In this document: positions 31,607 to 48,829 of the stretch, piece after piece | Layout of the letters: each line of letters begins with the position of its first letter | Position numbering within the stretch: the stretch's first letter is position 1 | Assembly (NCBI GenBank): GCA_947465395.1 | Contig: CANIAL010000008.1 | Coordinates: 1-64,000, forward strand | Length of the DNA: 64,000 bases | Direction of reading: 5' to 3' | Source: Alphaproteobacteria bacterium | Lineage (GTDB): Bacteria > Pseudomonadota > Alphaproteobacteria > Micropepsales > Micropepsaceae | Notes under the pieces: generated by a model | Database searches by the model: none | Told to the model about the DNA's origin: nothing | Seen by the model: only the letters and a program-made list of their open reading frames with translations | Position numbers and translations under genes: made by a program

Positions 31607-32212
31607 TTGGATTTGCCCCGCATCTTGAGTGAGATGGAGATTGCGGGCTTTCGCGAGAAGCTCTGCGCCGTCGCCACCCGCATCGTGGTCGAGCACGGCC
31701 ATGAGGGTTTCAACATGCGCCTGCTGGCATCGCGCATGGGTATCAGCGCCATGACCCCCTATCGCTATTTCAAGGACAAGGACGAAATCCTGTCCGCCAT
31801 CCGCGCCCGCGCCTTTGACCATTTCGCCGACCAGCTGGAAGCAGCATTGGCAAAACCGGGCAACGCGGCGGAACGCGGCGCGGCATTGGCCAAGGCTTAT
31901 GTGCGTTTCGCGCTGGAAGAACAGGTTTGCTACCGGCTGATGTTCGACCTGGCCCAGGCGCCGGGCGCGGCCCAGGTGCCCGAACTGGCCGCCGCCGAGA
32001 AACGCGCCCGCGCCGCCATTACCGATCCAGTGCGCGGGTTGATCGCCGATGGCGCCTACAAGGGCGATGCCGACATGATCGGGCATGTTTTCTGGGCGGC
32101 GCTGCACGGCGCGGTAGTGCTGCATCTGGCGGGCAAGCTGGACGGGGCGGTGAATTTCGAGGCGCTGCTGGCGGAAGTCACCGCCATGCTGCGCCAGATG
32201 TACAAGCCCTAG
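31607..32212 (+). CDS. TetR family transcriptional regulator
   Basis: 201 residues. TTG at 31607 is chosen because GGGAGGAAG lies just before it; an ATG at 31634 is the alternative. N-terminal helix-turn-helix: LLASRMGISAMTPYRYFKDKDEIL. The C-terminal ligand domain resembles the WHG-type TetR_C group (EEQVCYRLMFDLAQAP, FWAALHGAVVLHLAGKL). It overlaps by four bases the end of the convergent TonB-dependent receptor and may control that cluster. Confidence 0.88.
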   Translation: MDLPRILSEMEIAGFREKLCAVATRIVVEHGHEGFNMRLLASRMGISAMTPYRYFKDKDEILSAIRARAFDHFADQLEAALAKPGNAAERGAALAKAYVRFALEEQVCYRLMFDLAQAPGAAQVPELAAAEKRARAAITDPVRGLIADGAYKGDADMIGHVFWAALHGAVVLHLAGKLDGAVNFEALLAEVTAMLRQMYKP

Positions 32213-34578
32213 AAGCTGCGCTTCAAGGTGATGCGCAAAATGCGGCCCATGCCCGGCAGCGCCGACAGGTTGGCATATGTATCCGCGCCCGGTGTGAAGC
32301 TTTTGGCATCCGCCAGATTGTTCACATTCAGGCTGACATCCCACAGGCCTAGCCGCACATAGCCGGACGCGTTGAGCGTGATGGATTGCGGGAAAACCAG
32401 CGGCGTGGTCACGGTCTGGATGGTGCGCGAGACATAGGTGCCGCTGACGCTGGCGCCCCAGCCCGCATCATCGGCGGTGTAGGTGATGGCGGGGCTGACC
32501 ACCCAGTCCGGCAACAGCGTGTCCTGGTATTCGCCGGGGCGGATGCTGGAAAAATCAAAAGTGACGTAAGAGCCGCCAAAGCCTGATTGCGGCGGCAGGC
32601 CAGCTACCCGCGCCGGAAGATAGGCAAAGCTGTGATCAGGGCCGCGCACCATGGAACGCTGGCGGCTTCCGGCAAAGGTAAAGCTGACATTGTCGCTGGC
32701 GACATAGCGGATTTCCGCTTCCAGCCCCTGCGCCTTGCGTCCGATCACGGTGGTGACACCGGCGCCTTGCAGCAGCTGCGTGCGCGATTGCGCGTACCAG
32801 GCCATGCTCCCCACCAGATGCTGGTCCAGCAGGTCGAACTTCACGCCCACTTCATTCAGGAACGATGCCGACAGCCAGTCGCGCCCCGCCAGCAGGGATG
32901 TCGCCACCTGGCCCGCCTGCCCGATTTCCACGGCACTGGACTTGGCGTTGGTGATGTAAGGCACGATGCCGAAGGGCGTCTTCCAGGAAAGACTGACGGA
33001 ATAGGTGAAAACACCCTTGCCGCCCTTGCCGTCCGGCGGCTCGAACGCCATCACGCCCAGATCAACCGAGCGCACATTGTAATTGTCGTAGCGCCCGCCA
33101 ACGGTGAGATCCAGGCCGTTGTCCCATGATGTGTCATTGACCAGGAACAGCCCGCCATCCGTCACCGTGCTGCGGACATCATTTTCGAAGCCCAGTCCCA
33201 CCGCGCCCGGCGGATCGGGGGTGAAGGGCGAATCCAGGATGTCATTGGCGGCGGCGCCCGCGCTGATATCGCGCCGGTCCAGCGCGATGACGCCGCTGTT
33301 GAAGCTTTCGCGCCCCACGGCATGGGCATAGCGGTAGGAACCACCGATGATGGACTGGCTGGAAAACAGGCCCCATGTGCGCGAGAAATCGTATCGCGCC
33401 CGCGCTTCAAAAATGTCGCTGCGATATGATCCCGGAAAGCCGTACGAAACAAAGCGGTCGTTAGACAAGGTATCGGTGAAAAGCTGCAGGCGGACGGCAT
33501 CGCCGCCGTCCAGCATGCGCGCAAGATCGACATAGCCGGTATGGGTGGTGGTGCGCGAAAAATCCACGCCTTTGGCGATATAGACGGTGCGCCGGTCCAG
33601 ATGCGTGGTGCCGACGCCGGTGTCCAGGCTGTGCGTGGCGTCAGTGCAGGCGCCGCAGAACGGCACCACCTGATACAGCGGCTGAAAGCCGGGATCGAAG
33701 GCGTAAGGATTGCCGCCAAGCTCGTTGAGGGTGAGGCGGCCATTGCCGTCTGCATCCTTCAGCGACGTATCGCGCCCCGTTATATAGGCGCCGTTGTCTA
33801 TCAGGGTTTGGGTTAGGCGGTTCCAGCCCGGCGTCTGCACCTGGCCGTCGGCGTGATAGAACATGTAATCGGCGGACAGCGACCAGTCGCCTGCCGAAAA
33901 ATCGCCCGAAAATTGCAGAAGCTGGTGGCTGGGATGCAGGCCGCGATAAAAGCTGAAGGAATCGTCCAGCTCGCCATAGGCATGGACGCCGCCAGCTGCA
34001 AAACCCAAAGCCACCGGCGCGCTGACCTGCGCGGTCATGTTGCGCCTGGAATAGCTGCCATAGGTTACACTGGCGTCGCCGCTGATTTCGTCCTGCCGCG
34101 CGTTGGCGATGCTCTTGGGAATGAAATTGAGCTGCCCGCCCACCTTGCCCGCACCATAGATGGCCGATGGCGGCCCGCGCACGATTTCCACCCGCGCCGC
34201 ATCGCCCAAAGGCGTCTCGTAAGTGCCGCGATTTTCCGCCCGCTTAAAGCCGCGGAAATAATTTTCCGCCAATGTGCCGCGCAGATTGACCGCGCCTTCC
34301 ACGCCGTAAAAACTGGCAGTATAGGCGGACGGTGTCACGCGGGTCAGGTCGTCCACCCCATCCACGCCGTACCGGTCCATGGTGGCGGCACTGACGGTGG
34401 TGACGGCGCGGGGCGTTTCGGTCAGCGGCTTGGCCAGGCCAAAGGCCGCCGTGCCGGGCGCGGTTTCGATCAGATGGGCGCGGTCGCCGGTGACGGTGAT
34501 GCTTTCCATTTGTTGCGCGGCAGCCGGTGCAGAAAGCGACACCAGCATGACAATCACCTGACGCACATACACACGCAT
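32209..34578 (-). CDS. TonB-dependent receptor
   Basis: 789 residues from the ATG at 34578, signal peptide ending AAAQ. A TonB-box-like ESITVTG lies near the mature N-terminus. The plug domain has TETPRAVTTVSAATMDRYGV, VNLRGTLAENYFRGF, VEIVRGPPSAIYGAGKVGGQ, then a beta-barrel ending in F (LRITLKRSF). The plug resembles FhuA/FecA-type siderophore receptors, but the neighbours (DAAO-like flavoprotein, MFS carrier) argue for an organic substrate. It follows the MFS gene by 67 bases. Confidence 0.92.
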   Translation of the reverse strand: MRVYVRQVIVMLVSLSAPAAAQQMESITVTGDRAHLIETAPGTAAFGLAKPLTETPRAVTTVSAATMDRYGVDGVDDLTRVTPSAYTASFYGVEGAVNLRGTLAENYFRGFKRAENRGTYETPLGDAARVEIVRGPPSAIYGAGKVGGQLNFIPKSIANARQDEISGDASVTYGSYSRRNMTAQVSAPVALGFAAGGVHAYGELDDSFSFYRGLHPSHQLLQFSGDFSAGDWSLSADYMFYHADGQVQTPGWNRLTQTLIDNGAYITGRDTSLKDADGNGRLTLNELGGNPYAFDPGFQPLYQVVPFCGACTDATHSLDTGVGTTHLDRRTVYIAKGVDFSRTTTHTGYVDLARMLDGGDAVRLQLFTDTLSNDRFVSYGFPGSYRSDIFEARARYDFSRTWGLFSSQSIIGGSYRYAHAVGRESFNSGVIALDRRDISAGAAANDILDSPFTPDPPGAVGLGFENDVRSTVTDGGLFLVNDTSWDNGLDLTVGGRYDNYNVRSVDLGVMAFEPPDGKGGKGVFTYSVSLSWKTPFGIVPYITNAKSSAVEIGQAGQVATSLLAGRDWLSASFLNEVGVKFDLLDQHLVGSMAWYAQSRTQLLQGAGVTTVIGRKAQGLEAEIRYVASDNVSFTFAGSRQRSMVRGPDHSFAYLPARVAGLPPQSGFGGSYVTFDFSSIRPGEYQDTLLPDWVVSPAITYTADDAGWGASVSGTYVSRTIQTVTTPLVFPQSITLNASGYVRLGLWDVSLNVNNLADAKSFTPGADTYANLSALPGMGRILRITLKRSF

Positions 34579-34645
34579 GGTTCTGATCGTTTGAAAAGCG
34601 CGCATGTTCTAGCAGGTGGAATGCCGCCCACAAGCGCCGCCGCCT

Positions 34646-35869
34646 TTATGCCGCAGGATTTCCGGGCGCTGCACCCATGCGCGGAGCGCGCATCAGGATC
34701 ACCGCCAGCATCACCGCCGCCACCACCACCGCCAGGATGATGAAGGCGGGCACGAACTGGCCGCTGCGGTCAAAGATGAAGCCGGCAAAGGCCGGTCCCA
34801 CCGCGCCGATGGTGGAAATCAGATTGACGGTGGAAAACAGTTCCAGATTGGGACCGCGACCGAAATATTCCAGCAGCAGGATGGTAGAGGCGAAAAAAGT
34901 CAGGCCATAGCCGATGCCGATGCCGCCGGCGAAGACCAGCATCATGGGCGCACCCTGCGCCGCGCCAAGCGCCAGAAGCCCCACGATCAGAAGGACCAAG
35001 GCCGCCAGCAACATGGTCTTGGCGGACACGAAACGCCCTGCCACGCCGCCCAGGAATCGCGCAAAGGAGTTGAGCATGGCTTCCAGGCTCATCAGCGCGC
35101 CTGCCACCACGGGGGCGACGCCATGGGTCATCAGATGCGCCACCGCCACGGCATTGACGGTGATGCCAACGAACAGGAAAGCGGAATAGGCGGCGGCCAG
35201 CACGGCGAATTGCGGCGTGCGCAGCGCGGATTTCACGTCCCAGCTTTGCGACGTGATGGCGGGATCGGGATCGCGGCTGCCTTCAAGATTGGTAGTGACA
35301 TCCACCAGCATGGCCGAGATCGCGCCCAACACCAGCACGGCGATGGCGGCGAAAATCCAGTAGCCGCGCCAGCCGCCAAATCCACCACTGATCGCCGACA
35401 CCCAGAAATACAGAGGAGGACCTGCCACGCCGCCCAGGCCCCCGATGGTGAAATAAAGCCCAAAGGCAAAAGACGGGCGCGCGAAAACGCGGCTGAGCAA
35501 ATATGTCCCCGGCACCGTGGCCAGGGTCATGAAACTGAGGCCCGCCAGCGAACAGCCCAGGAAATAAAGCCAAAGACCTTGCGCGCGGGCGAGCGCCACG
35601 AACCCCGCCGCCATCAAGATGGCGCCCAGCATCAGGGCGGCGCGCACGCCCAGCCGCCGTATCAGCACCGCGGGAATAAGACTGGCCAGGCCCGTGAAAA
35701 CGCCCAGCAGCGAGAAACCGGTACCCGCCGCGCCCCAGCTCCAGTGCAGCTCGGCCACCATGGCGGGCAGGACCACGCCCAGGGATGAGAATGTCAGCGC
35801 GGTGATGAGAAAAAACATCAGGCTGACGCACGCCAGCGTTACCCAGGCACGAACGGAAGCCTCGATCAT
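34646..35869 (-). CDS. MFS transporter
   Basis: 407 residues with 12 predicted TM helices. The N-half carries AVLIRRLGVRAALMLGA (the loop 2-3 motif A region) and the C-half GRFVSAKTMLLAAL. It resembles the oxalate/formate-antiporter-like and monocarboxylate groups. Its start overlaps by four bases the stop of the flavoprotein gene, so the two are translationally coupled and the substrate may be that flavoprotein's substrate or product. Confidence 0.9.
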   Translation of the reverse strand: MIEASVRAWVTLACVSLMFFLITALTFSSLGVVLPAMVAELHWSWGAAGTGFSLLGVFTGLASLIPAVLIRRLGVRAALMLGAILMAAGFVALARAQGLWLYFLGCSLAGLSFMTLATVPGTYLLSRVFARPSFAFGLYFTIGGLGGVAGPPLYFWVSAISGGFGGWRGYWIFAAIAVLVLGAISAMLVDVTTNLEGSRDPDPAITSQSWDVKSALRTPQFAVLAAAYSAFLFVGITVNAVAVAHLMTHGVAPVVAGALMSLEAMLNSFARFLGGVAGRFVSAKTMLLAALVLLIVGLLALGAAQGAPMMLVFAGGIGIGYGLTFFASTILLLEYFGRGPNLELFSTVNLISTIGAVGPAFAGFIFDRSGQFVPAFIILAVVVAAVMLAVILMRAPRMGAAPGNPAA

Positions 35870-37062
35870 GCGCGGGGGAAACGCGAATAAAGCTCTTCCA
35901 GCACGCCCACCGCCTTGTCGGCTTCGGCACGGTCGGCCACTTCGCGGCCATTGTCATAGCCCTTCATGTCGCCGCCATCCACCGCCTGCACCACGATGCC
36001 GTCTGTGCGCGACCAGGTGGAGACATCGCGATAGGACAGGGCGTAGCGCACTTCCGGCTGCGGGATAAGCCAGGCGATCTGGCCACGCACCGGCACGATG
36101 GAATTGTCGTTCCACCATTCGCGCGCCGCATAGCCGGGGCAGTTGATCACGGTTTTTTCCGCAAGCTGCGTCAGCTCGCGCGGGTCGCGGAATTCCTGGC
36201 GCACGAACTTGCCGCCGGCCAGGAAGAAATCCGTCATCAAGGTATGGCTGTAATTGGCGATGTTGAACTGCATCGTCTCCGAGCGACGCACATATTTCAC
36301 TGGAAACGGCGTGGCGGCAGGCGGAATATCCTGTGCGCGCGGCGTCAGGTCACGGATGCGGTCATTGTAATGGGCGAAATCCAGCGAGCCAGGCGGCTCC
36401 GACGCTTCGCGGAAAGGCGTGTCCGACAGGGAATAGCGGTCCGTCCATTGCACGGGATTGCCGGGCAGGCCCAGATACTGGCGATAGATCTTGAAGGATG
36501 TTCGCGCCATCTGTTCCCAGGTCTCGGCGAAAGCCGGCCCCGCCACATCGGCCAGCGCAATGCGCGAATCCGGCGTCCAGCCGCCAGTGGCCCGCGCCGA
36601 GCGCGTCTGGGGAAGCTGGTCGCGGGCATAGATGGTGACGGCCGCGCCCTGGCGCTGCGCCGTGATGGCCGAGGTAAGCCCGATCGCGCCGCAGCCTATC
36701 ACGGCGATGGATTTGGGCCGGTTGATCATGGCCTGGCCCACCGCCATCGCCGCCGATCCCCAGGACAGCGACCAGCCGCTGCCGCCATGGCCGTAATTGT
36801 GCACCACGCGGGTGTCGCCCATCATTTCGGTTTCGATGCGCGGCCCCTTGGCGCGGAAGGGGCGCAGGCACACCGTGATGTCGAACAGACGATCGGCATG
36901 GGCGCGAATGGGCATCAGACGCGGCGGCACATCCTGGGCCGAAAGGCCCAAAGCGGGCGCGGTGCGCGCGCCCGGTGCCGCGCATGCCCCAAGACCTGCC
37001 AAACCGCCAAAGGCCAGCGAAGTCGTCAACAGGCGGCGGCGATCCAGATTTTTCGACGTCAT
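35866..37062 (-). CDS. Exported FAD-dependent oxidoreductase, circularly permuted D-amino-acid-oxidase type
   Basis: 398 residues from the ATG at 37062 (an ATG at 37074 is alternative). The N-terminus has DRRRLLTTS and a hydrophobic run ending LGAC, so it is probably Tat-exported and perhaps lipidated. Residues 67-102 (RPFRAKGPRIE, then HNYGHGGSGWSLSWG) match the part of D-amino-acid oxidase that is normally at the C-terminus. Only afterwards comes the FAD Rossmann motif AVIGCGAIGLTSA (121-133), normally at the N-terminus. The protein ends after the VPVRGQIAWL region and GGDMKGYDN. The order is thus permuted. Substrate unknown. Confidence 0.85.
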   Translation of the reverse strand: MTSKNLDRRRLLTTSLAFGGLAGLGACAAPGARTAPALGLSAQDVPPRLMPIRAHADRLFDITVCLRPFRAKGPRIETEMMGDTRVVHNYGHGGSGWSLSWGSAAMAVGQAMINRPKSIAVIGCGAIGLTSAITAQRQGAAVTIYARDQLPQTRSARATGGWTPDSRIALADVAGPAFAETWEQMARTSFKIYRQYLGLPGNPVQWTDRYSLSDTPFREASEPPGSLDFAHYNDRIRDLTPRAQDIPPAATPFPVKYVRRSETMQFNIANYSHTLMTDFFLAGGKFVRQEFRDPRELTQLAEKTVINCPGYAAREWWNDNSIVPVRGQIAWLIPQPEVRYALSYRDVSTWSRTDGIVVQAVDGGDMKGYDNGREVADRAEADKAVGVLEELYSRFPRA

Positions 37063-37138
37063 GGCGGCCCCCAATTCGGTGCGCCAAAACTAGCCCCCTC
37101 GCCTGTCCGGGGCAACGCCGATGCTGTAGCGTCGCCGG

Positions 37139-37462
37139 ATGACAAAGGAAGAAATCACCGCCTGGGCGCTGGCCAATGGCTGGCAGATGATGGACGGCTT
37201 TCCCAGCCTGACCAAGCCCACCGCGCCGCGTCCGGCCATTGTGCGGCTGGTGCTGAAAGCCACTGTCGCCAGCGTGGAGATCAAGAAGCCTGCGGGCAAA
37301 TGGGAAAAAGTCTCGGGCGCGGCCTACAAGGACATCGCGGCAGATGCGGAAAGCGGCATGCCGGGCGGATTGGGGCTTGGCACCATTTCGGGCATCACGC
37401 TTTTGATGCGCGACAACAAGGACCGCATGGTCTTTGCGAAGTTTGCGGCGCCGAAATCTTAG
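37139..37462 (+). CDS. Conserved-looking hypothetical protein
   Basis: 107 residues, starting MTKEEITAWALANGWQMMDG. Predicted short N-terminal helix, then alternating strands (IVRLVLKATVASVEIKK) and a glycine-rich loop. No signal peptide, TM segment or recognised family. Codon use (strong GC3) is like that of its neighbours, which supports a real gene. Divergent from the permuted oxidase. Confidence 0.65.
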   Translation: MTKEEITAWALANGWQMMDGFPSLTKPTAPRPAIVRLVLKATVASVEIKKPAGKWEKVSGAAYKDIAADAESGMPGGLGLGTISGITLLMRDNKDRMVFAKFAAPKS

Positions 37463-37487
37463 GAAAACCCCGATCGAAAACTCAGGC

Positions 37488-37593
37488 CCGCCCTCCCCTG
37501 CGCGCGCGTAGCGCGCTGGCGGGGGAGGTGGCCGTAGCAATGCGAAGGATGTCCAGTGGACATCCGAGCAGGTTGCGAAGGCCGGAGGGGGTA
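37488..37593 (+). repeat. Dispersed GC-rich inverted-repeat element, copy 4 (subtype A)
   Basis: GCCCTCCCC, GCGCGCGTAGCGCGC, GGGGGAGGTGGCCGTAGCA, GGATGTCC-N3-GGACATCC, CGAAGGCCGGAGGGGG. Nearly identical to copy 1 from the GGGGGAGG block onward. It ends beside the cytochrome c stop codon. Confidence 0.88.
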
Positions 37594-37598
37594 AATAA

Positions 37599-38018
37599 CT
37601 AGCGCTGTGCCTTCACGTCTTCCGGCTTCACCTTGTCCTTATAACGATTTCCGAAATTGCTGCGGATGTAGTTGACCACATCGGCCACCTGCTGGTCGCT
37701 GAGGAAATTCTTCAGCGCCGGCATCGCCTTTTGCCCATTGACGATCACCGAGATGGGATAGGCGGCGGTTTCCAGATTGGCGTCCTTGGCCAGCGCCGGA
37801 TACATGCCCGCGCCAACCGCGCCCTTGGCATCGGTCATGTGGCAGCCCTGGCAGACACCCTTGAAGACGGCTTCGCCGCCCTTGAACTGGGTCCAGGCGC
37901 CGCCGCGGCCCATGGCGCCGGTGCCGATATCCTGGGAATCATCGGCGCGCGTGGGCAGGCTGACCAGCGCAGACGCAAGCGCCAGGATTGCCGCGGTGGC
38001 GGCAAGACGGATTTTCAT
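37599..38018 (-). CDS. Exported class I cytochrome c
   Basis: 139 residues with a signal peptide (cleavage after TRA). One haem site, CQGCH, a distal methionine probably in KAMPALKNF, and a C-terminal helix QQVADVVNYIRSNF. It starts 19 bases after the stop of the flavin amine oxidase, with GGGAGAG before its ATG, so the two form an operon. The likely role is as electron acceptor for that flavoenzyme, by analogy with CycN and NicA2 of nicotine-degrading Pseudomonas. Confidence 0.93.
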   Translation of the reverse strand: MKIRLAATAAILALASALVSLPTRADDSQDIGTGAMGRGGAWTQFKGGEAVFKGVCQGCHMTDAKGAVGAGMYPALAKDANLETAAYPISVIVNGQKAMPALKNFLSDQQVADVVNYIRSNFGNRYKDKVKPEDVKAQR

Positions 38019-38037
38019 TTTTCTCTCCCAAACTTGT

Positions 38038-39636
38038 CTATGCGCTCATCGCGCGCTGATGCACCCGCTTGATGGCATCGAGCGCGGACGTGGCCGAGCC
38101 TTCCTGCCAGGCGCTGAGGCGCGAGGCATGTTCGCCCGCCAGCACGATGCGCCCGTCCAGAGCGCACATATTGTTGTAATGCTGGTCGCGCGCAGCCTCG
38201 GTCCATTGGCCGGAACAGCCAAGCGTCCAGGGCACGCGGTGCCAGGCCACGGCCACGCCGCATTCAAACTCTTTCTTGTAATTGCCCGGATGCAGCATCT
38301 CGCCATATTCCAGCGCGTCCTTGATGCGCTCGGAAGCAGGCTTGGCCGCCGCCACGAAGGCGCCCGAACCCATCACATAGGCGCCCAGAATGACGCCTTT
38401 TCCTTTCGAGAAATAATCCCACATGGGATAGCCAAGCATGGCGTTGGGCTGGCTGGTATAGGAAAGCCCGCCATAAATGCCGTCATCCTGTTCCCAGAAG
38501 CGGCGCTTGAACTGCAGGCCGATCTTGAGGCCCGCGCCATAGGAAAGCTGGTTGATGGCCGTTTTCATCTTGCCGCCCACATTCATGGGAATTTGCGACA
38601 GGATGGAAGCGGGGATGGTGCAGACGCACCAGTCGGCGGAAACCTTTTGCGGTGCGCCGCCCTTTTGCGTATCGACATAGGTGGCGGTGACGCCCTTTTC
38701 GTCCTGATGAATGTCAACGACCTTGGCATTGTACTTGATCAGGTTGCCCAGCTCGATGCCGAACGCCTTGCCCACCTGGCCCATGCCGCCCTTGGGCTGG
38801 AAGATGGAGGTCTGGTAGTCCCAGTCCTGGCCCCAGCCAATGGCGCGCCACATGTAGGAATTGAGCACATTGCTCATGCTGTCGGGCTCGGAATAGATGG
38901 GCAGGGAATCCAGCCCGCCGCCGGAATCCTTTATATAACCGCGGCGCGCGCCGGATTCGCGGCCCATCTTGTATTCGTAATTCTTGTCCAGCGCGCCCCA
39001 GGCCTTGAGCGCCGTCATCAGGATTTCCTGGTCCTGCTTGGTCACGGCCTGGTCCAGCGCATTCTGCTTGGTGCTCTTGGCCAGCAATTCGGCGACATGG
39101 CCATGGAAGTCGGCCTGAACCTCGCGGTAACGCTTGGGCTTGCCGCCATTGGCAGCGGCATTGTGGACATAGGCGTTGTAATTGACCTGGGTGAAGGGCT
39201 CCAGGGTCACGCCCAGCCGGCTGGTGTAATGCATCATCGCCTTGTGATGGTGCGGCAGGCGCCAAGGCCCGGGATTGATGTACTGGCCGGGGTCAAACTG
39301 CACATGCTGGGTTTCGCCGCCCAGCTCGGTATAGGTGTCGCCGCCATAGAGCGACCAGTTCCGCCCGCCCGCGCGATTGTTGTATTCCAGCACCGTCACC
39401 TTGTAGCCGGCGTCGCGCATTTCCAGCGCCGCCACCATGCCGGCAATGCCGGCGCCCAGAATCAGAACCGAGGATCCCGGCGGCGCTTTGCCCAGCTGCG
39501 GCGGACCGGTGAAGTGCGATGCATCCGCAAAGCCCATCTCGGTCATGGCATTGTACATGGCGGTGGAGCCGGCCACCGTGCCGATCATGCTGAGGAGCGA
39601 ACGCCTGCTCAGCCGCGAGCTGTTTTTCTCTGCCAT
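38038..39636 (-). CDS. Tat-exported flavin-dependent amine/L-amino-acid oxidoreductase
   Basis: 532 residues from the ATG at 39636 (GGGGAGAAG upstream; the frame extends to 39798 but that part is non-coding). Twin-arginine signal SRRSLLSM (10-17). FAD site VLILGAGIAGMVAALE with the E in VTVLEYNNRAGGR. The motif GPWRLPHHH (R126) corresponds to the arginine that holds the substrate carboxylate in L-amino-acid oxidases. The C-terminal FAD motif is LAGEHASRLSAWQEGSATSA. It probably oxidises an amino acid or amine in the periplasm. Electrons may go to the adjacent cytochrome c rather than O2 (inference). Confidence 0.9.
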   Translation of the reverse strand: MAEKNSSRLSRRSLLSMIGTVAGSTAMYNAMTEMGFADASHFTGPPQLGKAPPGSSVLILGAGIAGMVAALEMRDAGYKVTVLEYNNRAGGRNWSLYGGDTYTELGGETQHVQFDPGQYINPGPWRLPHHHKAMMHYTSRLGVTLEPFTQVNYNAYVHNAAANGGKPKRYREVQADFHGHVAELLAKSTKQNALDQAVTKQDQEILMTALKAWGALDKNYEYKMGRESGARRGYIKDSGGGLDSLPIYSEPDSMSNVLNSYMWRAIGWGQDWDYQTSIFQPKGGMGQVGKAFGIELGNLIKYNAKVVDIHQDEKGVTATYVDTQKGGAPQKVSADWCVCTIPASILSQIPMNVGGKMKTAINQLSYGAGLKIGLQFKRRFWEQDDGIYGGLSYTSQPNAMLGYPMWDYFSKGKGVILGAYVMGSGAFVAAAKPASERIKDALEYGEMLHPGNYKKEFECGVAVAWHRVPWTLGCSGQWTEAARDQHYNNMCALDGRIVLAGEHASRLSAWQEGSATSALDAIKRVHQRAMSA

Positions 39637-39796
39637 CGTCTTCTCCCCGGTTCGGGTATCAGGTCCCGTTATTACAGGAATGTTATAGAAGCCCGGCAGG
39701 GCGGCAAGGGCTTGTTCGCAAATAGCGATTCTTGACGCGGCGCAACAAAGCCCTAACGCGGGCTGCGGTCCGCCCGCTGACAAGGAATGCGACAAC

Positions 39797-39830
39797 AAAA
39801 AACCCGCCCATCGGATGATGAGCGGGTTTT
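39797..39830 (-). terminator. Terminator of the second TonB-dependent receptor gene
   Basis: AAAACCCGC/GCGGGTTTT with an inner CATC-ggat-GATG stem; on the minus strand it is followed by TTTT. 34 bases after the receptor stop. Confidence 0.88.
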
Positions 39831-39863
39831 CCGTTTAGAGACGCGTCTTAGGACTTCCCGGAC

Positions 39864-42665
39864 TTAGAACTTCAAAGTCAGGCGGGCATAGTAGAAGCCG
39901 CCATTCGGGTTGTAGTTGCCCGCGATGGGGCCACCGGCGGTGCTGCCATTGCTGGGTGTCAGCGACTTGCCGTTGCCGTCCGTGTCCGGTGTCAGATAGC
40001 CCTGGCGTGTGGGCTTGACGCTGAACAGATTGTTGGCGCCCGCGGCGAACTGCACATTTTCGGTGATGCTGTAACGACCTTCGATGTCGAACAGGCCCAC
40101 GCCAGGACGGTTCTGCGCGTAATAGGGCGTGCCGCCATTGGGAGTGGTGAGCTGATGCTGCGGGCCATAATAAGTTTCGCGCAACGTCACGCCAAACTCA
40201 TCCAGCGACCAGTTGGCGGTCAGGCCAATCTTTTCCGACGGGCCGCTGTGCACGAAGTTGTACTGCGTGAAAAGCGGGAACAGGGTGGCACCCGGCGCCG
40301 AGGCCGTGATGACGGCCGGCGGCGGCTGGATCTTGCTGATCGAGGTCTGGTTGTAGTTGCCAGCCAGGGTCCAATCCACCGAACCATAATTGCCCATGTC
40401 CATCGGGTAGTTGACCGCCAGGTCCACGCCTTGCGTCAGGGTAGAGATGCCGTTCAGGAACACCGTGATGCCGTTCTGGGTGGCAGTCGGGTCCAGGGCA
40501 ATACCCTGAAGGGCGATCGCCGTATTGACCAGCGGCACATTGATGGCGCCGCCCAGGCTGTTGACCGTTGCGGACTTCACAATGCGGTTGCCCAAGGTCA
40601 GGCTGTAGGCATCGATGGTCACGCTAAGGTCGGCAAAGGGATGGGCCACGATGCCGGCGCTGTACTGGGTGGAAATTTCCGGACCCAGGTTAGGAATGCC
40701 CAGCAGCTTGGACGCCGGAGAGTTGGCGGGCAGCTGCACCGTTGCCGTGGTGGGCGAGACCTGCGTGGCGGAATAATATTCTTCAGCCAGGGTGGGGGCG
40801 CGGAAGCCGGTCGAGATGGTGCCGCGGATCGCCCATTGCGGGTTGAAGTCATAACGCGCCGTGATCTTGCCGATCGTGGCATCGCCGAAGTCGCTGTAAT
40901 GCTCGTAACGGCCGGCGATATCCAGCTGCAGAGCTTCGATGGGGGCAACCGCGAAGTCCACATAGGCCGCATAGTTCTTGCGGCTGTGCTTGCTGGCGTC
41001 CGAAAGGCTGTAGCCCGGGAATGACTGGCCGCCTTCCTTGTAGCGCGAGGCCGCATCACCAGACTTGATCTGGTAGAAGTCCTCGCGGGCTTCCAGGCCA
41101 ACCGCGACGGTCAGCGGGCCGGCCATGCCGATATTGTACTGGTGGGTGGCGTCGATATTGGCCACCAGCTGCGAGGCCACGAACGAGCCGTCATAGAAGT
41201 TGGACGGGGTGGTGTGCGTGTCAATGAACAGCGCACGGTTGCCCGAATCCAGGGTCAGGACATCTTCCTGGTCCTTGCCGTAGCTGGCGCCCGCATCAAT
41301 ATCCCAGCCGGCCAGCATGAACTTCACGCCGGCGTTATACTGGTAATCGTCTTGCCGGATTGCTTCGATGGGCGTGAAGCCCTTGGGCGCAAACACCAGT
41401 TCGCCAGGCGTATAGAGCGTGCCGGCTTGTCCACCGGAGATGATCTGACCAGTGGTTGTGTTAAGGCCATTGTTGCCAAGGGGCGCCACGCCAAGGCCGC
41501 TGCCATTGGTCTGACCAATGGCGCAAGCCGGCGTAATGCCGTTGGCCGCTACCGCGGTGTTGTAGCCCTGCTTGTTGGTTGCGGAACAAGGCTGGCTGGA
41601 ACCCGGCGCCGCGATGATCTGGTTCGGCAGACGGTAATTCTGCTGCGCCTTGGCATTGCGATGCGCCCAGCTGGCGAAGGCATACAGATGCACATCGTCG
41701 CTGACGTCATAGCCGGCGTTCAGGAAGGACGTGAACAGCTGCTGTTCCGAATTGCCGCCGATGCGGTTGGCATAGGGATAGAAGGGCGCCGTGCGGCGCT
41801 GGGCCAGCGGCACGCAAACGCCGTTGGAACAAGGCACGATGCCCGTGTTGGGATCGACCGCGAAGGTATTGTTGGTGGCCGTGGCGCCCAGGCCGATGCG
41901 GCCTTCCTGGGCTTCCGCGAAGCCGGTGGAGGGACCGCTAATATAGCGGGCGTCCTTGCCCGGCGATGTCAGGGCATAACCCACGAACTTCTTGTCAACG
42001 GTGACGTTGATGAAGCCCTTGTCGAACAGCGGCATGCCGATATTGAGCGAGATGTCATAGGTCTCGCCTGTCTTGTTGTACTGGCGGCCGACGCTGGTGG
42101 TCAGATTGCCGCCCGACGAGTTCTTCTTGAGGATGAAGTTGATAACGCCAGCAATGGCGTCGGTGCCGTACTGGGCGGCCGAACCGTCCAGCAGGACTTC
42201 TGCATGTTCGATGGCAGCCGTGGGGATCAGCGAAATGTCGGGCGCCGCGCTGCCGCCGAAGGCATTGGCATTCGCGTTGAGCAGACCAACACCATGACGG
42301 CGCTTGCCGTTCACCAGCACCAGCGTGTCATTGCCCGACAGGCCGCGCAGGGTGGCGGACAGCGCCAAGTTGGAAAGGTCGCCGCCAGTTGCCTGGGCGG
42401 TGAAGGACGGAACGGTCTGTCCCAGGGCCTGGCGAAGGTCGGCCTGGCCGGCGCCTTGCGTCAGGGCAGATGTGCCCAGCACGGTGATGGGGGCGGCGCT
42501 GTCGGCGGCGGTCATGCCGGCCACGCGCGTACCCGTGACGATCACGCTTTCCAGATCGGCCTGGTTGTTGCTCTGCGCCATGGCGGCGCTGGCAAACATG
42601 CCGAAGGACACGACGGACGCGCCCAGGAACAAGGAATTCTTGAAGTTGGATTTTGATACAAACAC
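39864..42665 (-). CDS. TonB-dependent receptor (large, Oar/CirA-like plug)
   Basis: 933 residues. GTG start at 42665, supported by AAGGGGG seven bases upstream. Signal peptide ending AMAQ. TonB box region ESVIVTGTRV. Plug with ATLRGLSGNDTLVLVNGKRR, IPTAAIEHAEVLLDGSAAQY and GTDAIAGVINFILKK. The barrel ends YYARLTLKF. The plug type is common in receptors for plant-derived or peptide substrates in Caulobacterales and sphingomonads. It lies between the amine oxidase operon and the PatB-like gene, separated from the former by a terminator. Confidence 0.94.
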   Translation of the reverse strand: MFVSKSNFKNSLFLGASVVSFGMFASAAMAQSNNQADLESVIVTGTRVAGMTAADSAAPITVLGTSALTQGAGQADLRQALGQTVPSFTAQATGGDLSNLALSATLRGLSGNDTLVLVNGKRRHGVGLLNANANAFGGSAAPDISLIPTAAIEHAEVLLDGSAAQYGTDAIAGVINFILKKNSSGGNLTTSVGRQYNKTGETYDISLNIGMPLFDKGFINVTVDKKFVGYALTSPGKDARYISGPSTGFAEAQEGRIGLGATATNNTFAVDPNTGIVPCSNGVCVPLAQRRTAPFYPYANRIGGNSEQQLFTSFLNAGYDVSDDVHLYAFASWAHRNAKAQQNYRLPNQIIAAPGSSQPCSATNKQGYNTAVAANGITPACAIGQTNGSGLGVAPLGNNGLNTTTGQIISGGQAGTLYTPGELVFAPKGFTPIEAIRQDDYQYNAGVKFMLAGWDIDAGASYGKDQEDVLTLDSGNRALFIDTHTTPSNFYDGSFVASQLVANIDATHQYNIGMAGPLTVAVGLEAREDFYQIKSGDAASRYKEGGQSFPGYSLSDASKHSRKNYAAYVDFAVAPIEALQLDIAGRYEHYSDFGDATIGKITARYDFNPQWAIRGTISTGFRAPTLAEEYYSATQVSPTTATVQLPANSPASKLLGIPNLGPEISTQYSAGIVAHPFADLSVTIDAYSLTLGNRIVKSATVNSLGGAINVPLVNTAIALQGIALDPTATQNGITVFLNGISTLTQGVDLAVNYPMDMGNYGSVDWTLAGNYNQTSISKIQPPPAVITASAPGATLFPLFTQYNFVHSGPSEKIGLTANWSLDEFGVTLRETYYGPQHQLTTPNGGTPYYAQNRPGVGLFDIEGRYSITENVQFAAGANNLFSVKPTRQGYLTPDTDGNGKSLTPSNGSTAGGPIAGNYNPNGGFYYARLTLKF

Positions 42666-43497
42666 GCTTAGGCCCCCTTGGATTAGGTGAACTCACAAAT
42701 CTGTAATGACGGCAGATCCCCGTTTTTCGGGTTATTTCCAGAACATACCATCGGAAATTATTGTAACACTCATGGCCTAGCATATATACCAAAAGAGTTA
42801 TACAATAATACTATAGTATAGTTTTATTGGGGGCGTGGCAGGGATTTTGCGAGATTTAGAAGCTTTTCAGATGACGCAAATCACCACATGCCGAGGGCTA
42901 GGAAGCTATATCCCAAAGATGAGCTTCTGCCTTTGAGAATAACAGGATAGCGACGCGCAGCCAGCGCCATCGTCACCGCCTGTCGTGCTGCGCAACAAGG
43001 CGACAATTTGCGAAAAATGACCCCAAATTTTCGCCCATGGCATTGCTGCAACACCGGGGTTGAAAAACATTGTACGCCTCGGCGCCTCTCACAAAACTGA
43101 CGCGGCGCGGGCGCGCGTCATCCGTCATCACCGATGTCATGCATGATTCCATGGCGGCGCTTGCGCAAGCCGCATCACCATCAAAGCCTTTGAAAATCGG
43201 CTCGGGATGCACGCGCTGCAATCGTGCGCGTCCTGTTGCGCGTTTTCCGATTCCCTCGCGGGATGATGCGCATGCGCGCAAGAGAGTGCCGCCCGGCATC
43301 GCATACAGCGTTACTTGGTCCGGACACGGATCAGACAGAGCGTGGATTGCCTCGCGCTGCATTGCACACCGGACATGGCAGCATTGCCGCTCCATTGACT
43401 CTGGCAATTACCAAACGGAAGCTATGGCCCAGGCGCTAGGAGGCGGATGCATCCGCTCGTCCGGTACGCGCCGGTAAAAACACTAAAGGGGACTTCC
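42666..43497. other. 832-base divergent intergenic region
   Basis: No convincing gene; the open frames here lack family features and consistent codon bias. Positions 42740-42830 form an AT-rich island, with the perfect 12-base dyad ATACTATAGTAT at 42808-42819, likely in the receptor promoter. Near the other end the dyad GCGGATGCATCCGC (43443-43456) lies 42 bases before the PatB-like start. The middle 500 bases have ordinary GC and no structure that I recognise; they could hold a decayed gene or a small RNA. Confidence 0.6.
42808..42819. promoter_or_regulatory. AT-rich dyad in the receptor promoter region
   Basis: Perfect palindrome ATACTATAGTAT within an AT-rich stretch about 145 bases upstream of the receptor start; flanked by CAATA and TATTG. 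Candidate operator. Confidence 0.35.
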
Positions 43498-43551
43498 ATG
43501 GAAACGAATCGCCGTTCTTTTATCATGGAAACGAATCGCCGTTCTTTTATG
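43498..43551 (+). repeat. 27-base tandem duplication in the signal peptide
   Basis: Two directly adjacent 27-base units, identical except for the last base, each starting ATGGAAACGAATCG and each encoding M-E-T-N-R-R-S-F plus I or M. Confidence 0.97.
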
Positions 43552-44913
43552 ATGGACACCGGCATGACCGCCGGCGTTCTGGCGCTGGGCCCGTTGGCCG
43601 CTTCGCTTGCCGCCACCGCTCCGGCCCAGGCCGCGGGCAAGTTCGATTTCGACACGCCCTATAACCGCCTTGGCACCGACAGCGTGAAGTGGGACCAGCC
43701 CCTGCGCGAGCGCCACATGGGCCACATCATTGCCGGCATGACCACCGCCGACATGGACTTCAAGTGCCCGCCCGCGATCACGGCTGCTCTGGCCAAGCGC
43801 ATCCAGCACGAAAACTGGGGCTATATGGACATGAACTCGCCCGGTCCCCAGGCCTTCAAGAAGGGCCTTATTGACTGGAACCAGAAGCGCTACGGCATCA
43901 ACAACATCAACCCGGAACTGCTGGGCATCACCACTGGCGTGCATTCGGGCATCATCGCCACCATGCGCTCGCTCTGCCCTCCCGGCAGCAAGGTGCTTAT
44001 GGCCACCCCGATCTATAGCGGCTTCTATGGCGACGTTCGCGCCACCAAGACCGTGGCTGAAGAAAGCCTGATGAAGCAGGTCAACGGCCGTTACGAAATC
44101 GACTGGGAAGATTTCGAACGCCGCATGACCCCGGACGTGAAGGTCTCGATTCTCTGCAATCCGCAGAACCCGACCGGCCGCGCCTGGACCCGCGAAGAAC
44201 TGACCAAGTATGGCGAGCTGTGCCTGAAGCACAAAATCGTCGTGCTGTCCGATGAAATCCATTGCGACTTCATCAGCAAGGGCCAGAAGTATGTGCCCTT
44301 CGCGACCCTGGCCAACAAGGACGTGGTCAACAACTCCGTCACCTACAAGTCGGCGTCCAAGTCCTTCTCGCTGCCGGGCATGAAGTGCGCCTGGTTCTTC
44401 ACCACCAACCCCACCCTGTATCGCCAGACTGTCGATAATAACCGCGCGGACCTTTCCACGCTGGGCATGATCGGCATGCAGGCGGCATATGCCGGTGGCC
44501 AGGAATGGATGACCGAGTGCGCGGCCTATATCGACGGCAACCACGAGTTCACCAACCAGTACATCAAGGCCAACATCCCGATGTTGAAGGTCGGTGCGAA
44601 GCCGGAAGGCACGTACCTTGCCTGGGTCGACATCAGCCAGGTGGCTGACAAGATCAACGCCAAGAAGCTGGCCGATGACATGAACAAGAACCCGAGGATC
44701 AATGCCCGCACCGGCATGGCCGTGAAAGCCACGCCCGAGGACATGGTCAATTTCTGGTTCGCCACCAACGCCTATGTCGCGATGAACTCGGGCACGGGTT
44801 ATGGCCTTGGCGGTCAGAACCACATGCGCATGAACCTGGGCACCTCGCGCCGCACGATCAAGGCGGCCCTGGACAGCATGGCGGCGGCTTGCAAGAAGCT
44901 GCAGTCGGCCTAA
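43498..44913 (+). CDS. Tat-exported PatB/MalY-type PLP-dependent aminotransferase/C-S lyase
   Basis: 471 residues with AAAGGGGA before the ATG. Residues 1-9 and 10-18 are a tandem copy of METNRRSF(I/M), giving two twin-arginine motifs, followed by a hydrophobic region and the AQA cleavage site. Fold type I PLP enzyme: NPQNPTG (221-227), SDEIHCDF (251-258), PLP lysine K288 in SASKSFSLPG, and a C-terminal RMNLGTSRR that binds the substrate carboxylate. The PatB/MalY group are cystathionine beta-lyases or cysteine desulfhydrases; export is unusual for it. Two terminators follow. Confidence 0.92.
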   Translation: METNRRSFIMETNRRSFMMDTGMTAGVLALGPLAASLAATAPAQAAGKFDFDTPYNRLGTDSVKWDQPLRERHMGHIIAGMTTADMDFKCPPAITAALAKRIQHENWGYMDMNSPGPQAFKKGLIDWNQKRYGINNINPELLGITTGVHSGIIATMRSLCPPGSKVLMATPIYSGFYGDVRATKTVAEESLMKQVNGRYEIDWEDFERRMTPDVKVSILCNPQNPTGRAWTREELTKYGELCLKHKIVVLSDEIHCDFISKGQKYVPFATLANKDVVNNSVTYKSASKSFSLPGMKCAWFFTTNPTLYRQTVDNNRADLSTLGMIGMQAAYAGGQEWMTECAAYIDGNHEFTNQYIKANIPMLKVGAKPEGTYLAWVDISQVADKINAKKLADDMNKNPRINARTGMAVKATPEDMVNFWFATNAYVAMNSGTGYGLGGQNHMRMNLGTSRRTIKAALDSMAAACKKLQSA

Positions 44914-44920
44914 AAAACAA

Positions 44921-44952
44921 CAGCGGGGCTTTAACGGCCCCGCTGCTTTTTC
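44921..44952 (+). terminator. First terminator of the PatB-like gene
   Basis: CAGCGGGGC-tttaacg-GCCCCGCTG followed by CTTTTTCT, eight bases after the stop. Confidence 0.92.
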
Positions 44953-44993: not shown

Positions 44994-46262
44994 CTATGCC
45001 GATGCTGGAAGCGTGACGGCCATTTCCAGCCCGCGCGGCTGGCGGTTATGGGCCGCGATGGTGCCGCCATTGACCACCAGCGCGCGCTGGGCGATGGCCA
45101 GGCCCAGGCCGAAGCCGAAGCCATCCGCCGACACGCCGAAGGGCTTGAACAAGGTCGCCATGGCTTCCTGCGGCACGCCGGGGCCTTCATCACGCACCAG
45201 CAGGCTGTAGCGTTCGCCTTCCTGGCGCAGGATCACATGCACGGCGCCATTCTCCGGCGAATAGCGCACGGCATTGCGCACCACATTTTCAATGGCGCGG
45301 GCCACCAGGCGGCCACTGCCGCGCACGATCCATTCGACATCATCGCCTTCCGGCGTCACATCCATCATCACCGAAACGCCCTTGCCGGCGGCTTCGAAAT
45401 GGGCGTCCTGCACCACCGCCTTCACGATCTCGGCAAAGTCGAAATAATCATCGCCGCGCGCCTGGCCGCTTTCCAGCTTGGACAGGGTCAGAAGCTCGCC
45501 CACCATTTCGTCCAGCTTGCCGGCCTCGCCGCTGATGCGATCCAGCGAGGTTTCCAGCTTGGCCGGGTCCTGGCGTACCAGGCCGATGGCAAGGTTCAGC
45601 CGCGCCAGCGGCGTGCGCAGTTCATGGGAAACGTCGGCCAGCAGCCGGTCGCGCGCCGTCACCAGTTCTTCCAGTCGCATGGCCATCTGGTCGAAATCAT
45701 GGGCCAGGTCCGCGATTTCGTCGCGCCGACGCCCCATGGCGGGTCCCAGCCGCGTGCTGAAATCCCCGCCGGCCAGCTTGCCGAAGCCTAGCTGCATGCG
45801 CTGGATGGGATTGGTCAGATAAAGCGCAAGAGAGGCGCTGAACAACAGGCTGGCCAGTGCCGCCACCAGCATCACCGGCGTGGGCGGCATGCCGCGCGAT
45901 GAGGTGCGCTGGCGGAAGTAAGAGACGCGGTAATTGGTGCCATCGGGTGCGGGCGCCACGGTCTGGGCCAGCGGGTCCTGTTTTTCAGGGGCCGCGCTTG
46001 CCAGCGCCACATGCAGGCGGGCGCGTTCGCTGCGGGGCCAAGTGGCGGCCTGTGCTTCGAACGCTGGCTCGCCGCCCGCCCGGATGGCGGACGATGCCGC
46101 CGCCACCGACAGGTTCGCCATGTCGCGCATGTAATCGGAGACTTCCGATGGGCGCAGAAAATTGAACACCAGCCAGACACCCTGGGTGATGATGAAGAAA
46201 GTCAGCCAGAAGCCCAGGAAGATTTTCCAGAACAGGCGACGTTTCACGATCATCGGCCGCAT
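44994..46262 (-). CDS. Sensor histidine kinase (CpxA/EnvZ type)
   Basis: 422 residues from the ATG at 46262 (TTG at 46268 is also in frame). TM1 KIFLGFWLTFFIITQGVWLV, a periplasmic domain of about 90 residues, TM2 VMLVAALASLLFSASLALYL, HAMP (NPIQRMQLGFGKLAGGDF), HisKA with LLADVSHELRTPLARLNL, and HATPase with ENVVRNAVRYSP, DEGPGVP and GFGLGLAIA. It follows its response regulator by 13 bases. Signal unknown; envelope stress would fit the CpxA resemblance. Confidence 0.93.
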   Translation of the reverse strand: MRPMIVKRRLFWKIFLGFWLTFFIITQGVWLVFNFLRPSEVSDYMRDMANLSVAAASSAIRAGGEPAFEAQAATWPRSERARLHVALASAAPEKQDPLAQTVAPAPDGTNYRVSYFRQRTSSRGMPPTPVMLVAALASLLFSASLALYLTNPIQRMQLGFGKLAGGDFSTRLGPAMGRRRDEIADLAHDFDQMAMRLEELVTARDRLLADVSHELRTPLARLNLAIGLVRQDPAKLETSLDRISGEAGKLDEMVGELLTLSKLESGQARGDDYFDFAEIVKAVVQDAHFEAAGKGVSVMMDVTPEGDDVEWIVRGSGRLVARAIENVVRNAVRYSPENGAVHVILRQEGERYSLLVRDEGPGVPQEAMATLFKPFGVSADGFGFGLGLAIAQRALVVNGGTIAAHNRQPRGLEMAVTLPASA

Positions 46263-46275
46263 CACCAAGGCTCCA

Positions 46276-46968
46276 TTATCCCTGCTGCTTCAGCCGGTAG
46301 CCGACGCCGCGAATGGTTTCAATTTCAATGACCCCGCCGCTGGCGGTGGCCAGTTTCTTGCGCAGGTTGCTGACATGCACATCGACGCTGCGATCATATG
46401 ACTCGCGCGGGCGGCCCAGGACCTTCAGCGACAATTCCTCCTTGCTGGAGACCATCTCGCCGGCCCGCATCAGGCTTTCCAGCATGTCGAACTCGGACGT
46501 GGTGAGTTCAAAGGCAGCGCCATTCCACAGGACTTCGCGCTTGCCCGGCGACAAATCCAGCGCGCCCATCTTCAGGGCGGATGCCGGCCCCGTCTCGCGC
46601 TGGCGGCGCATCACCGCGCGCATGCGGGCCACCAGCTCGCGGGGAAAATAGGGCTTGGCGACATAATCATCAGCGCCCATTTCCAGGCCCACAACCCGAT
46701 CCACATCGCCGCCCTTGGCGGTCAGCATGATCACGGGGATGGTGCTGGATTTGCGGATATGGCGCAGCACTTCATTGCCGTCCATCCCGGGCAGCATCAC
46801 GTCCAGGATCACCACGTCATATTGCCCCGACAAGGCAGCGGCGGCCCCGTCCGGCCCGTTAAAGGCCGCGGTGGTGCGGATGCCTTCGCCCGCCAGATAT
46901 TCGGTCAGCATCTCGCTGAGGGCGGCGTCGTCATCAATCAAAAGGGCGTGCAATTCTGTCTCCGACAT
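46276..46968 (-). CDS. OmpR-family response regulator (CpxR type)
   Basis: 230 residues: receiver with acidic pocket DDDAA, phosphoacceptor D in VVILDVMLPGMDGNEVL and K in DYVAKPYFPRELVARM; C-terminal winged helix (LTTSEFDMLESLMRAGEMVS, DRSVDVHVSNLRKKL, ETIRGVGYRL). First gene of the pair with the histidine kinase. Confidence 0.95.
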   Translation of the reverse strand: MSETELHALLIDDDAALSEMLTEYLAGEGIRTTAAFNGPDGAAAALSGQYDVVILDVMLPGMDGNEVLRHIRKSSTIPVIMLTAKGGDVDRVVGLEMGADDYVAKPYFPRELVARMRAVMRRQRETGPASALKMGALDLSPGKREVLWNGAAFELTTSEFDMLESLMRAGEMVSSKEELSLKVLGRPRESYDRSVDVHVSNLRKKLATASGGVIEIETIRGVGYRLKQQG

Positions 46969-47935: not shown

Positions 47936-48829
47936 ATGGCGACCGACGACAGCATCACAGATTTTCCCGAAGCGAATTCCTCTGGCCTTTCCCGCCGCGA
48001 TTTCGCGGGCCTGTCGGTGGCGACAGGCATCGCCACCATGGCGGGCGGCGCGCGCGCCGCGACGGAAGTGGTCGAAACCGACGTGATGGTGAAGACGCCG
48101 GACGGCATGTGCGATGCGGCCTTCATCCATCCGGCCAGCGGTGCCCATCCTGGCGTCATCATCTGGGCGGATGTGTTCGGCCTGCGTCCTTCCATGCGCG
48201 CCATGGCGCGGCGCATGGCGGCGGAAGGTTTTTCCGTGCTGGTACCCAATCCCTATTACCGCACGTCGAAAGCGCCGCAGATTCCGGACGCCTCCACCTT
48301 CGACTTCGCCAAGGATCGCGCCCAGCTCACCCCGTTGACCGGCCCGTTGCAGGCGCCGGGCGCGGCGGAACGTGATGCCGTTGCCTATGTGGCGTTCCTG
48401 GATTCGCGCAAGGAGGTGGACAAGACCAAGAAGATCGGCACCCAGGGTTACTGCATGGGCGGGCCGCTGGTGGTGAAGACCGCCGCCGCTGCCCCCGGCC
48501 GCATTGGCGCGGGCGGGTCCTTCCATGGCGGCGGGCTGGTCACCGACAAGCCCGACAGCCCACATCTGCTGGCCCCCAAGATCAAGGCCGGCATGTATTT
48601 CGCGGTGGCGGGCAGCGATGACGTCAAGGCGCCCGGCGACAAGGACACGCTGCGAAAGGCGATGGCCGACGCCAAGGTGCCGGCCGAGGTGGAGCTGTAT
48701 GCCAACTCCATCCATGGCTGGTGCGTTTCCGACATGCCGATGCAGAACGGCAAGCCCATCTACAACAAGGCCGAAGCCGACATGGCCTGGGCCAAGCTGG
48801 TGGCGCTTTACAAGAAGCATCTGGTTTAA
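47936..48829 (+). CDS. Tat-exported dienelactone hydrolase family protein
   Basis: 297 residues with GGTGAGGAA before the ATG. Twin-arginine signal SGLSRRDFAGLSVA at about 16-29, cleavage near ARA-A. The DLH fold uses a Cys-Asp-His triad: C in GTQGYCMGGPL, D in VAGSDDVKAPGD, H in ANSIHGWC. Dienelactone hydrolases open lactones in aromatic degradation, but exported members act on other esters. Substrate unknown. Confidence 0.88.
   Translation: MATDDSITDFPEANSSGLSRRDFAGLSVATGIATMAGGARAATEVVETDVMVKTPDGMCDAAFIHPASGAHPGVIIWADVFGLRPSMRAMARRMAAEGFSVLVPNPYYRTSKAPQIPDASTFDFAKDRAQLTPLTGPLQAPGAAERDAVAYVAFLDSRKEVDKTKKIGTQGYCMGGPLVVKTAAAAPGRIGAGGSFHGGGLVTDKPDSPHLLAPKIKAGMYFAVAGSDDVKAPGDKDTLRKAMADAKVPAEVELYANSIHGWCVSDMPMQNGKPIYNKAEADMAWAKLVALYKKHLV

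Follow-up and report, generated by a model that had tools for sequence, protein, structure and literature searches.

Candidate components of an extracytoplasmic amino-acid oxidation system, including a circularly permuted D-amino-acid-oxidase-family flavoprotein, in a Micropepsaceae genome

Background

In Gluconacetobacter diazotrophicus PAL5, a Tat-type L-amino acid oxidase, a cytochrome c and RidA are encoded in one operon (lao-cccA-ridA), which is placed in the context of indole-acetic acid synthesis from tryptophan and reported to be conserved in Caulobacter crescentus and Xanthomonas (excerpts of PMC5053998). Flavin amine dehydrogenases of the NicA2/Pnao type combine a Tat signal with a cytochrome c partner, to which electron transfer was measured (excerpts of PMC12224317). 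Rid proteins are not described as exported in the excerpted parts of PMC9537276 and PMC7688666, and the MalY protein of Lactobacillus is a broad amino-acid racemase acting via its Lys and Tyr (PMC5845896, in part).

The region described here shares with lao-cccA-ridA a Tat-type L-amino-acid-oxidase-like flavoprotein (LAAO) and a cytochrome c, but has no ridA beside them; in turn, the D-amino-acid-oxidase-family flavoprotein (pDAAO), the exported PatB and the TonB receptor of this region do not appear in the excerpted description of that operon (PMC5053998). Since the LAAO-cytochrome-RidA trio is known from the same source, the novel elements are the permuted exported D-amino acid oxidase (DAAO) with its own cytochrome, the exported PatB and the loci at which they occur jointly. 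Among the papers listed by searches of the open-licence PMC literature on permuted and exported DAAO, exported C-S lyases and exported Rid proteins, none was seen to describe the permuted DAAO or an exported PatB. A preliminary description of this DNA had regarded PLP C-S lyases and DAAO relatives as usually cytoplasmic or peroxisomal, which fits PatB and DAAO; an exported LAAO/cytochrome/RidA set has already been published (excerpts of PMC5053998).

Gene organization of the region

The window, i.e., the whole stretch of 64,000 nucleotides analysed, belongs to a genome assembly whose 17 contigs add up to 1,769,448 bases, at a completeness of 93.5 %. All genes named in the preliminary description, the response regulator included, are present where it had placed them (Table 1). 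The export signals that it ascribed to the three enzymes are likewise present, as read by motif: (i) DRRRLL plus the lipobox LGAC in pDAAO, (ii) SRRSLL in LAAO, and (iii) NRRSFM followed by AQA in PatB.

Table 1 Coordinates of features of the region (positions in the window)
Feature	Position	Strand	Remark
TetR regulator	31607-32212	+	convergent with TBDR1
TBDR1, TonB-dependent receptor in one unit with pDAAO and MFS	32209-34605	-	
MFS carrier	34646-35869	-	4 bp overlap with pDAAO stop
pDAAO, circularly permuted D-amino-acid-oxidase-family flavoprotein	35866-37062	-	twin-arginine signal and lipobox
107-aa ORF between pDAAO and LAAO units	37139-37462	+	no Pfam match
Mono-haem cytochrome c, exported; probably accepts electrons from LAAO	37599-38018	-	19 bp downstream of LAAO
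LAAO, flavin amine oxidoreductase with Tat motif	38038-39636	-	
Terminator-like hairpin between TBDR2 and LAAO	39795-39840	-	
TBDR2, TonB-dependent receptor	39864-42665	-	
Tat-exported PatB/MalY-type PLP enzyme	43447-44913	+	K305, Y190 conserved
Terminator-like hairpin between convergent PatB and histidine kinase	44919-44947		match on both strands
Histidine kinase	44994-46268	-	
Response regulator	46276-46968	-	

The minus strand carries, in this order, TBDR2, LAAO, cytochrome c, pDAAO, MFS and TBDR1, the latter two separated by 40 bp; the opposite-strand 107-aa ORF parts pDAAO from the LAAO-cytochrome pair. At one border, tetR converges on TBDR1 with an overlap of 4 bp, so that the two share no promoter region; at the other, the two-component pair converges with patB across the second hairpin. 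The hairpins, the opposite-strand ORF and the convergent borders together indicate several transcription units rather than a single island operon.

A TetR regulator had been said to border the cluster and a two-component pair to follow it. Both positions are right. As a shared regulator, however, TetR is not supported, since it is convergent with TBDR1 and stays with TBDR1 and its Rut-like operon in relatives. Likewise, a part for the two-component pair is not supported, as no link to LAAO or PatB was seen in the neighbourhoods of the relatives listed.

The idea of one conserved island as a strict gene set is rejected: the nearest relatives (genomes G033, G072 and G074) keep pDAAO, LAAO and PatB at different places. 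What does recur are parts of it, as detailed below.

The circularly permuted flavoprotein pDAAO

Judged from sequence comparison and structure prediction, pDAAO is circularly permuted, the part matching the C-terminus of DAAO preceding the part that matches its N-terminus. In phmmer comparisons with solved structures, pDAAO residues 68-112 matched DAAO residues 325-369 and residues 122-371 matched 25-276 (7ct4), and the pieces were likewise swapped relative to D-aspartate oxidase (6rkf). The AlphaFold model (mean pLDDT 91.3, pTM 0.86; alignment of 60 natural sequences) has the same confidence in block 51-110 as in the remainder, and D-amino acid oxidases took the top rank in Foldseek. VIA-align paired model residues 117-393 with DAAO 1-268, leaving the DAAO C-terminus for the N-terminal block of the model (Z 19.6-21.0, rmsd 2.8-2.9 over 244-253 residues for the mammalian enzymes). 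The permutation already noted in the preliminary description is thereby corroborated by both approaches; a search for solved structures of the permuted form returned none. In the predicted build, the native C-terminal strand block would lie ahead of the Rossmann fold, and a short linker would connect the former termini.

Both motifs of the DAO fold, GxGxxG and HNYGHGG, are present in pDAAO, in reverse of the canonical order, in which the Rossmann motif comes first and HNYGHGG lies close to the C-terminus. Among 80 loci kept from a survey of named genomes, 61 were permuted, 8 canonical and 11 undecided; for L118 and L120 the class was set by eye, their automatic label "canonical" having arisen from a motif that occurs by chance in the signal sequence. 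After rotating the permuted sequences back and aligning them with the 8 canonical ones, R67 was found in 67/67 sequences, H88 in 66/67 and Y90 to G94 throughout; R67, GxGxxG and H88-G94 are kept in both classes. R67 aligns with DAAO R283, the residue serving the substrate carboxylate. While pDAAO resembles DAAO and D-aspartate oxidase in the Rossmann motif, HNYGHGG and this arginine, it differs from them by its permutation, its Tat signal, the frequent lipobox and the occasional coupling to a cytochrome c.

According to the titles of their records, permuted loci occur in Alpha-, Beta- and Gammaproteobacteria, Bacteroidota, Opitutales, Gemmatimonadota, Acidobacteriota, Phycisphaerales and Synechococcus; the permuted DAAO is a separate family across several phyla. 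The tree splits permuted from canonical sequences with a support of 1.0 and is no proof of a single origin, because the canonical side consists of only 8 sequences from the same motif search. Twin arginines followed by a hydrophobic stretch occur in 55/61 permuted homologues and a lipobox-like motif in 35/61. pDAAO was detected in 35/96 family genomes at E 1e-3 (weak matches counted) and in 16/349 phylum genomes at E 1e-20. That a well-known flavoenzyme was permuted in nature and the product maintained as a separate exported family in several phyla would clearly tie the rewiring of a fold to a new compartment and perhaps a new oxidant.

Gene neighbourhoods of pDAAO

Neighbours were counted on all ORFs of 100 pDAAO loci (98 after removal of duplicates, L040/L117 and L050/L133 being identical loci) with fetched flanks of up to about 10 kb a side. 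A cytochrome c gene lies directly downstream of pDAAO (overlap to 15 bp) in 8 loci, i.e., L041, L060, L064, L065, L067, L119 (Acetobacter oeni), L124 (a Sphingomonadales MAG) and L130 (Altererythrobacter); in the other 92 no adjacent cytochrome c was found. RidA is encoded in the fetched flanks of 10 loci and absent from those of 90. It is the gene next to pDAAO in L148 (Emticicia), L155 (Runella) and L145 (an Opitutales MAG), and nearly all RidA proteins of the 10 loci have, by eye, a hydrophobic signal start (one of the three in L065 is without). An amidohydrolase (Pfam Amidohydro_3), which we take to be N-acyl-D-amino-acid-deacylase-like, is encoded within 0.5 kb in 4/100 loci, and LAAO accompanies pDAAO in another count of 4/100 (L124 and the related L054, L055 and L174). 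Most loci have none of these partners.

Locus L124 combines them in the row LAAO-cytochrome-pDAAO-cytochrome, followed by RidA, TBDR, RidA, cytochrome and LAAO; the positions of its two exported RidA proteins match the only two PF01042 genes of that genome. The order LAAO-cytochrome-pDAAO is common to L124 and the window, the two LAAO proteins sharing only 54 % identity.

Two further arrangements were observed in this survey. In the Opitutales MAG (L145:172-2776, minus strand), pDAAO has as neighbours a HisC-like PLP enzyme and a Rid-domain protein of 447 aa, both exported. An exported family of about 490 aa and no Pfam match (L110:10882-12360, plus strand; homologues in L064 and L065) is encoded beside LAAO as well as beside pDAAO.

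In relatives of the host, pDAAO stands in a different row. In L032, where all genes are called, it is followed by a regulator that we assume to be GntR, then by MFS, RutA-like, RutB-like and TBDR1 genes, with tetR convergent; L031 has a row of this type downstream of pDAAO, the RutB-like gene is not called in L034, and L033 ends at a contig end within MFS. MFS is kept beside pDAAO in L031-L034, the RutA-like gene is present in L031, L032 and L034 and the RutB-like gene in L031 and L032. Their products match the RutA and BiuH/RutB models, all below the curated cut-offs. The window has neither the RutA-like monooxygenase nor the RutB-like amidohydrolase beside MFS, and the host genome gave no RutA-like match at E 1e-10. 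As these genes are missing here relative to the relatives, the operon of the window is a shortened form: MFS, TBDR1 and TetR derive from a different operon, whose RutA/RutB-like genes have been lost, and the transporter pair of MFS and TBDR1 may have carried another compound.

From the complete row of L032 and the loss of the RutA-like gene in the host it could be argued that pDAAO-MFS-TBDR1 is what remains of an operon for the catabolism of an N-heterocycle or amide, once with GntR, a RutA-like flavin monooxygenase and a RutB/BiuH-like amidohydrolase, and with pDAAO acting on that compound and unrelated to LAAO and PatB here. We regard this as rather unlikely, because pDAAO occurs elsewhere alone or beside cytochrome c, deacylase, RidA or LAAO, and the carboxylate arginine of DAAO is invariant.

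LAAO, cytochrome c and RidA

Among solved structures, the window LAAO is best matched by 2jae (E 5.6e-78 over residues 48-529), which we take to be the L-amino acid oxidase of Rhodococcus opacus. LAAO was found in 19/96 family genomes at E 1e-40 and in 8/289 class genomes at E 1e-100. Purpose-built profiles, applied to every ORF in the window and in 60 fetched loci, gave the neighbours of LAAO and PatB; the 51 LAAO genes counted are those within these chosen stretches, not every match in family or class. Twin arginines with a hydrophobic stretch are present in 49 of the 51. A cytochrome c gene follows within 300 bp downstream of 35, and 16 are without (two of them at contig ends); within 5 kb, RidA is encoded at 13, a TBDR at 12 and PatB at 4 of the 51 genes. 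In L092, L218 and L223 the order is LAAO-cytochrome-RidA-TBDR2, with the TBDR2 homologues last, and in L083, from a relative, LAAO-LAAO-cytochrome-RidA-PatB are encoded on one strand.

A profile search of all ORFs found no RidA in the window or near its LAAO. RidA genes are near LAAO in the relatives L083, L092 and L223 and on host contig C16, where an exported RidA shares a stretch of 6 kb with LAAO and PatB; the host genome has two PF01042 genes in all.

With its Tat signal (by motif) and the adjacent mono-haem cytochrome c gene, the window LAAO resembles the NicA2/Pnao-type dehydrogenases (excerpts of PMC12224317), but has its nearest solved structure in the Rhodococcus enzyme. By analogy with these Tat/CytC flavin amine dehydrogenases, pDAAO and LAAO may be dehydrogenases that pass electrons to cytochrome c. 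LAAO could also be an oxidase, as 16/51 LAAO genes are without a cytochrome. One step further, both flavoenzymes might be exported oxidases that form H2O2 as antimicrobial or signal, and indeed homologous LAAOs are oxidases and genes presumed to be AhpC-like and AhpF-like adjoin LAAO in L054 and L055; given the coupling to cytochrome c at 35/51 LAAO genes and 8/100 pDAAO loci, we consider this improbable.

The exported PatB/MalY-type enzyme

PatB is a fold-type I PLP enzyme which shares the catalytic Lys and Tyr of PatB/MalY C-S lyases (K305 and Y190 in the phmmer comparison with 6qp3, E 5e-65), but differs from these by its Tat signal, an insert of about 45 residues (399-443 relative to 6qp3) and a score of 303.7 bits, below the cut-off of 340 for TIGR04350 (NCBIfam). 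The twin-arginine start with hydrophobic stretch is found in 19/19 PatB genes with neighbourhoods (out of 23 matches including fragments). Exported PatB occurs in 6/96 family genomes at E 1e-40, all six of which also carry LAAO, and in 1/289 class genomes at E 1e-80, namely that of the host alone; exported PatB is thus an expansion within a single clade, from which its neighbourhoods likewise come.

Instead of a C-S lyase, the exported PatB might be a MalY-type broad amino-acid racemase supplying LAAO and pDAAO from either enantiomer. This is possible though doubtful: the Lactobacillus MalY provides a precedent (PMC5845896, in part), both residues are present, and in L085 an exported paralogue of PatB has a member of the alanine-racemase family encoded 2 kb away, but the same Lys/Tyr pair serves beta-lyases and the insert also weighs against this reading. 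The racemase-family protein in question (L085:6411-7700, minus strand) has a twin-arginine signal.

Both RidA and LAAO are encoded within 5 kb of only 3/19 exported-PatB genes each. That 16/19 have no LAAO within this distance would favour a chance neighbourhood, in which three unrelated exported enzymes came to lie within 10 kb in a paralogue-rich genome, as would the 4 LAAO and 4 exported PatB copies in 1.77 Mb and the division of the units by terminator-like hairpins and the opposite-strand ORF. Against such a coincidence, which we judge unlikely, an LAAO is encoded no more than 5 kb from 2 of the 4 host PatB genes (those of the window and of C16), L083 holds LAAO, cytochrome, RidA and PatB in one row, and pDAAO meets LAAO again in L124 and in L054/L055/L174. 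The recurrence of the gene set thus has two sides: the exact set is scattered in the nearest relatives, an outcome that the preliminary description had named as contrary to its proposal, and most PatB genes stand without LAAO, yet the LAAO-cytochrome pair with RidA or TBDR neighbours recurs, PatB joins it in L083, and pDAAO joins LAAO in four loci.

Proposed extracytoplasmic amino-acid oxidation

The region probably, if by a modest degree, contains parts of an extracytoplasmic amino-acid oxidation system consisting of LAAO, pDAAO, cytochrome c, PatB and TBDR2, with RidA encoded elsewhere. Gene order, export motifs, the permutation, conserved active-site residues and recurrent neighbours are direct observations, from which we infer substrates, electron transfer, the role of RidA and the direction of transport as follows. 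TBDR2 would carry the substrate across the outer membrane. LAAO, exported in folded state by Tat, would produce imino acids from L-amino acids or from related amines, with electrons passing to the adjacent exported cytochrome c rather than to O2, and pDAAO, as a Tat lipoprotein that elsewhere has its own downstream cytochrome c, may perform the equivalent oxidation of D-amino acids or D-like substrates. Exported RidA, in the host encoded beside a second LAAO on contig C16, could convert the imino/enamine products to keto acids and ammonia, and exported PatB may catalyse beta-elimination or racemisation of amino acids in the same compartment. The earlier proposal of extracytoplasmic deamination is thus supported in part: LAAO-cytochrome recurs with RidA and receptor neighbours, but MFS, TBDR1 and TetR go with the Rut-like operon.

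More broadly, and tentatively, as somewhat short of an even chance, one may speculate on a respiration of amino acids outside the cytoplasm in several phyla: pDAAO and LAAO would act as dehydrogenases, each with a cytochrome c of its own to reduce, the imines would be removed by Rid proteins outside the cytoplasm, and PLP enzymes of the PatB/MalY or HisC-like type, also exported, would interconvert or cleave the amino acids. In this way D- and L-amino acids, whether from the environment or from turnover of the cell wall, would supply electrons and ammonia while staying outside the cell. If the modules work in this way, many bacteria's Tat-exported amino-acid enzymes without an assigned role would receive one, an extra route from D-/L-amino acids to ammonia and electrons would exist outside the cytoplasm, and Rid proteins would be active in the periplasm. 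As the genes are present in culturable Sphingobium, Gluconobacter, Brevundimonas and Dyadobacter, these ideas are testable.

Further observations on the host genome and window

At 1.77 Mb (93.5 % completeness), the host genome compares with 1.8-5.0 Mb in other members of the genus and has nonetheless kept 4 LAAO and 4 exported PatB genes, besides 1 pDAAO. An exact palindrome, GGATGTCC-NNN-GGACATCC, occurs at window positions 1373-1391, just past a called gene, and at 37547-37565, where it is intergenic; similar text in another host contig suggests that it is perhaps a dispersed repeat, and two matches (up to 3 mismatches) were reached in 8/100 shuffles. Downstream of the region, at 50701-51807 (plus strand), a peptidase with a twin-arginine-like start, presumably of family S58 (DmpA/P1 type), is followed by an SSF symporter, an aldehyde dehydrogenase and a short-chain dehydrogenase; if exported, this peptidase could liberate unusual amino acids. 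A dienelactone-hydrolase-family protein with a twin-arginine-like signal is encoded at 47936-48829 (plus strand).
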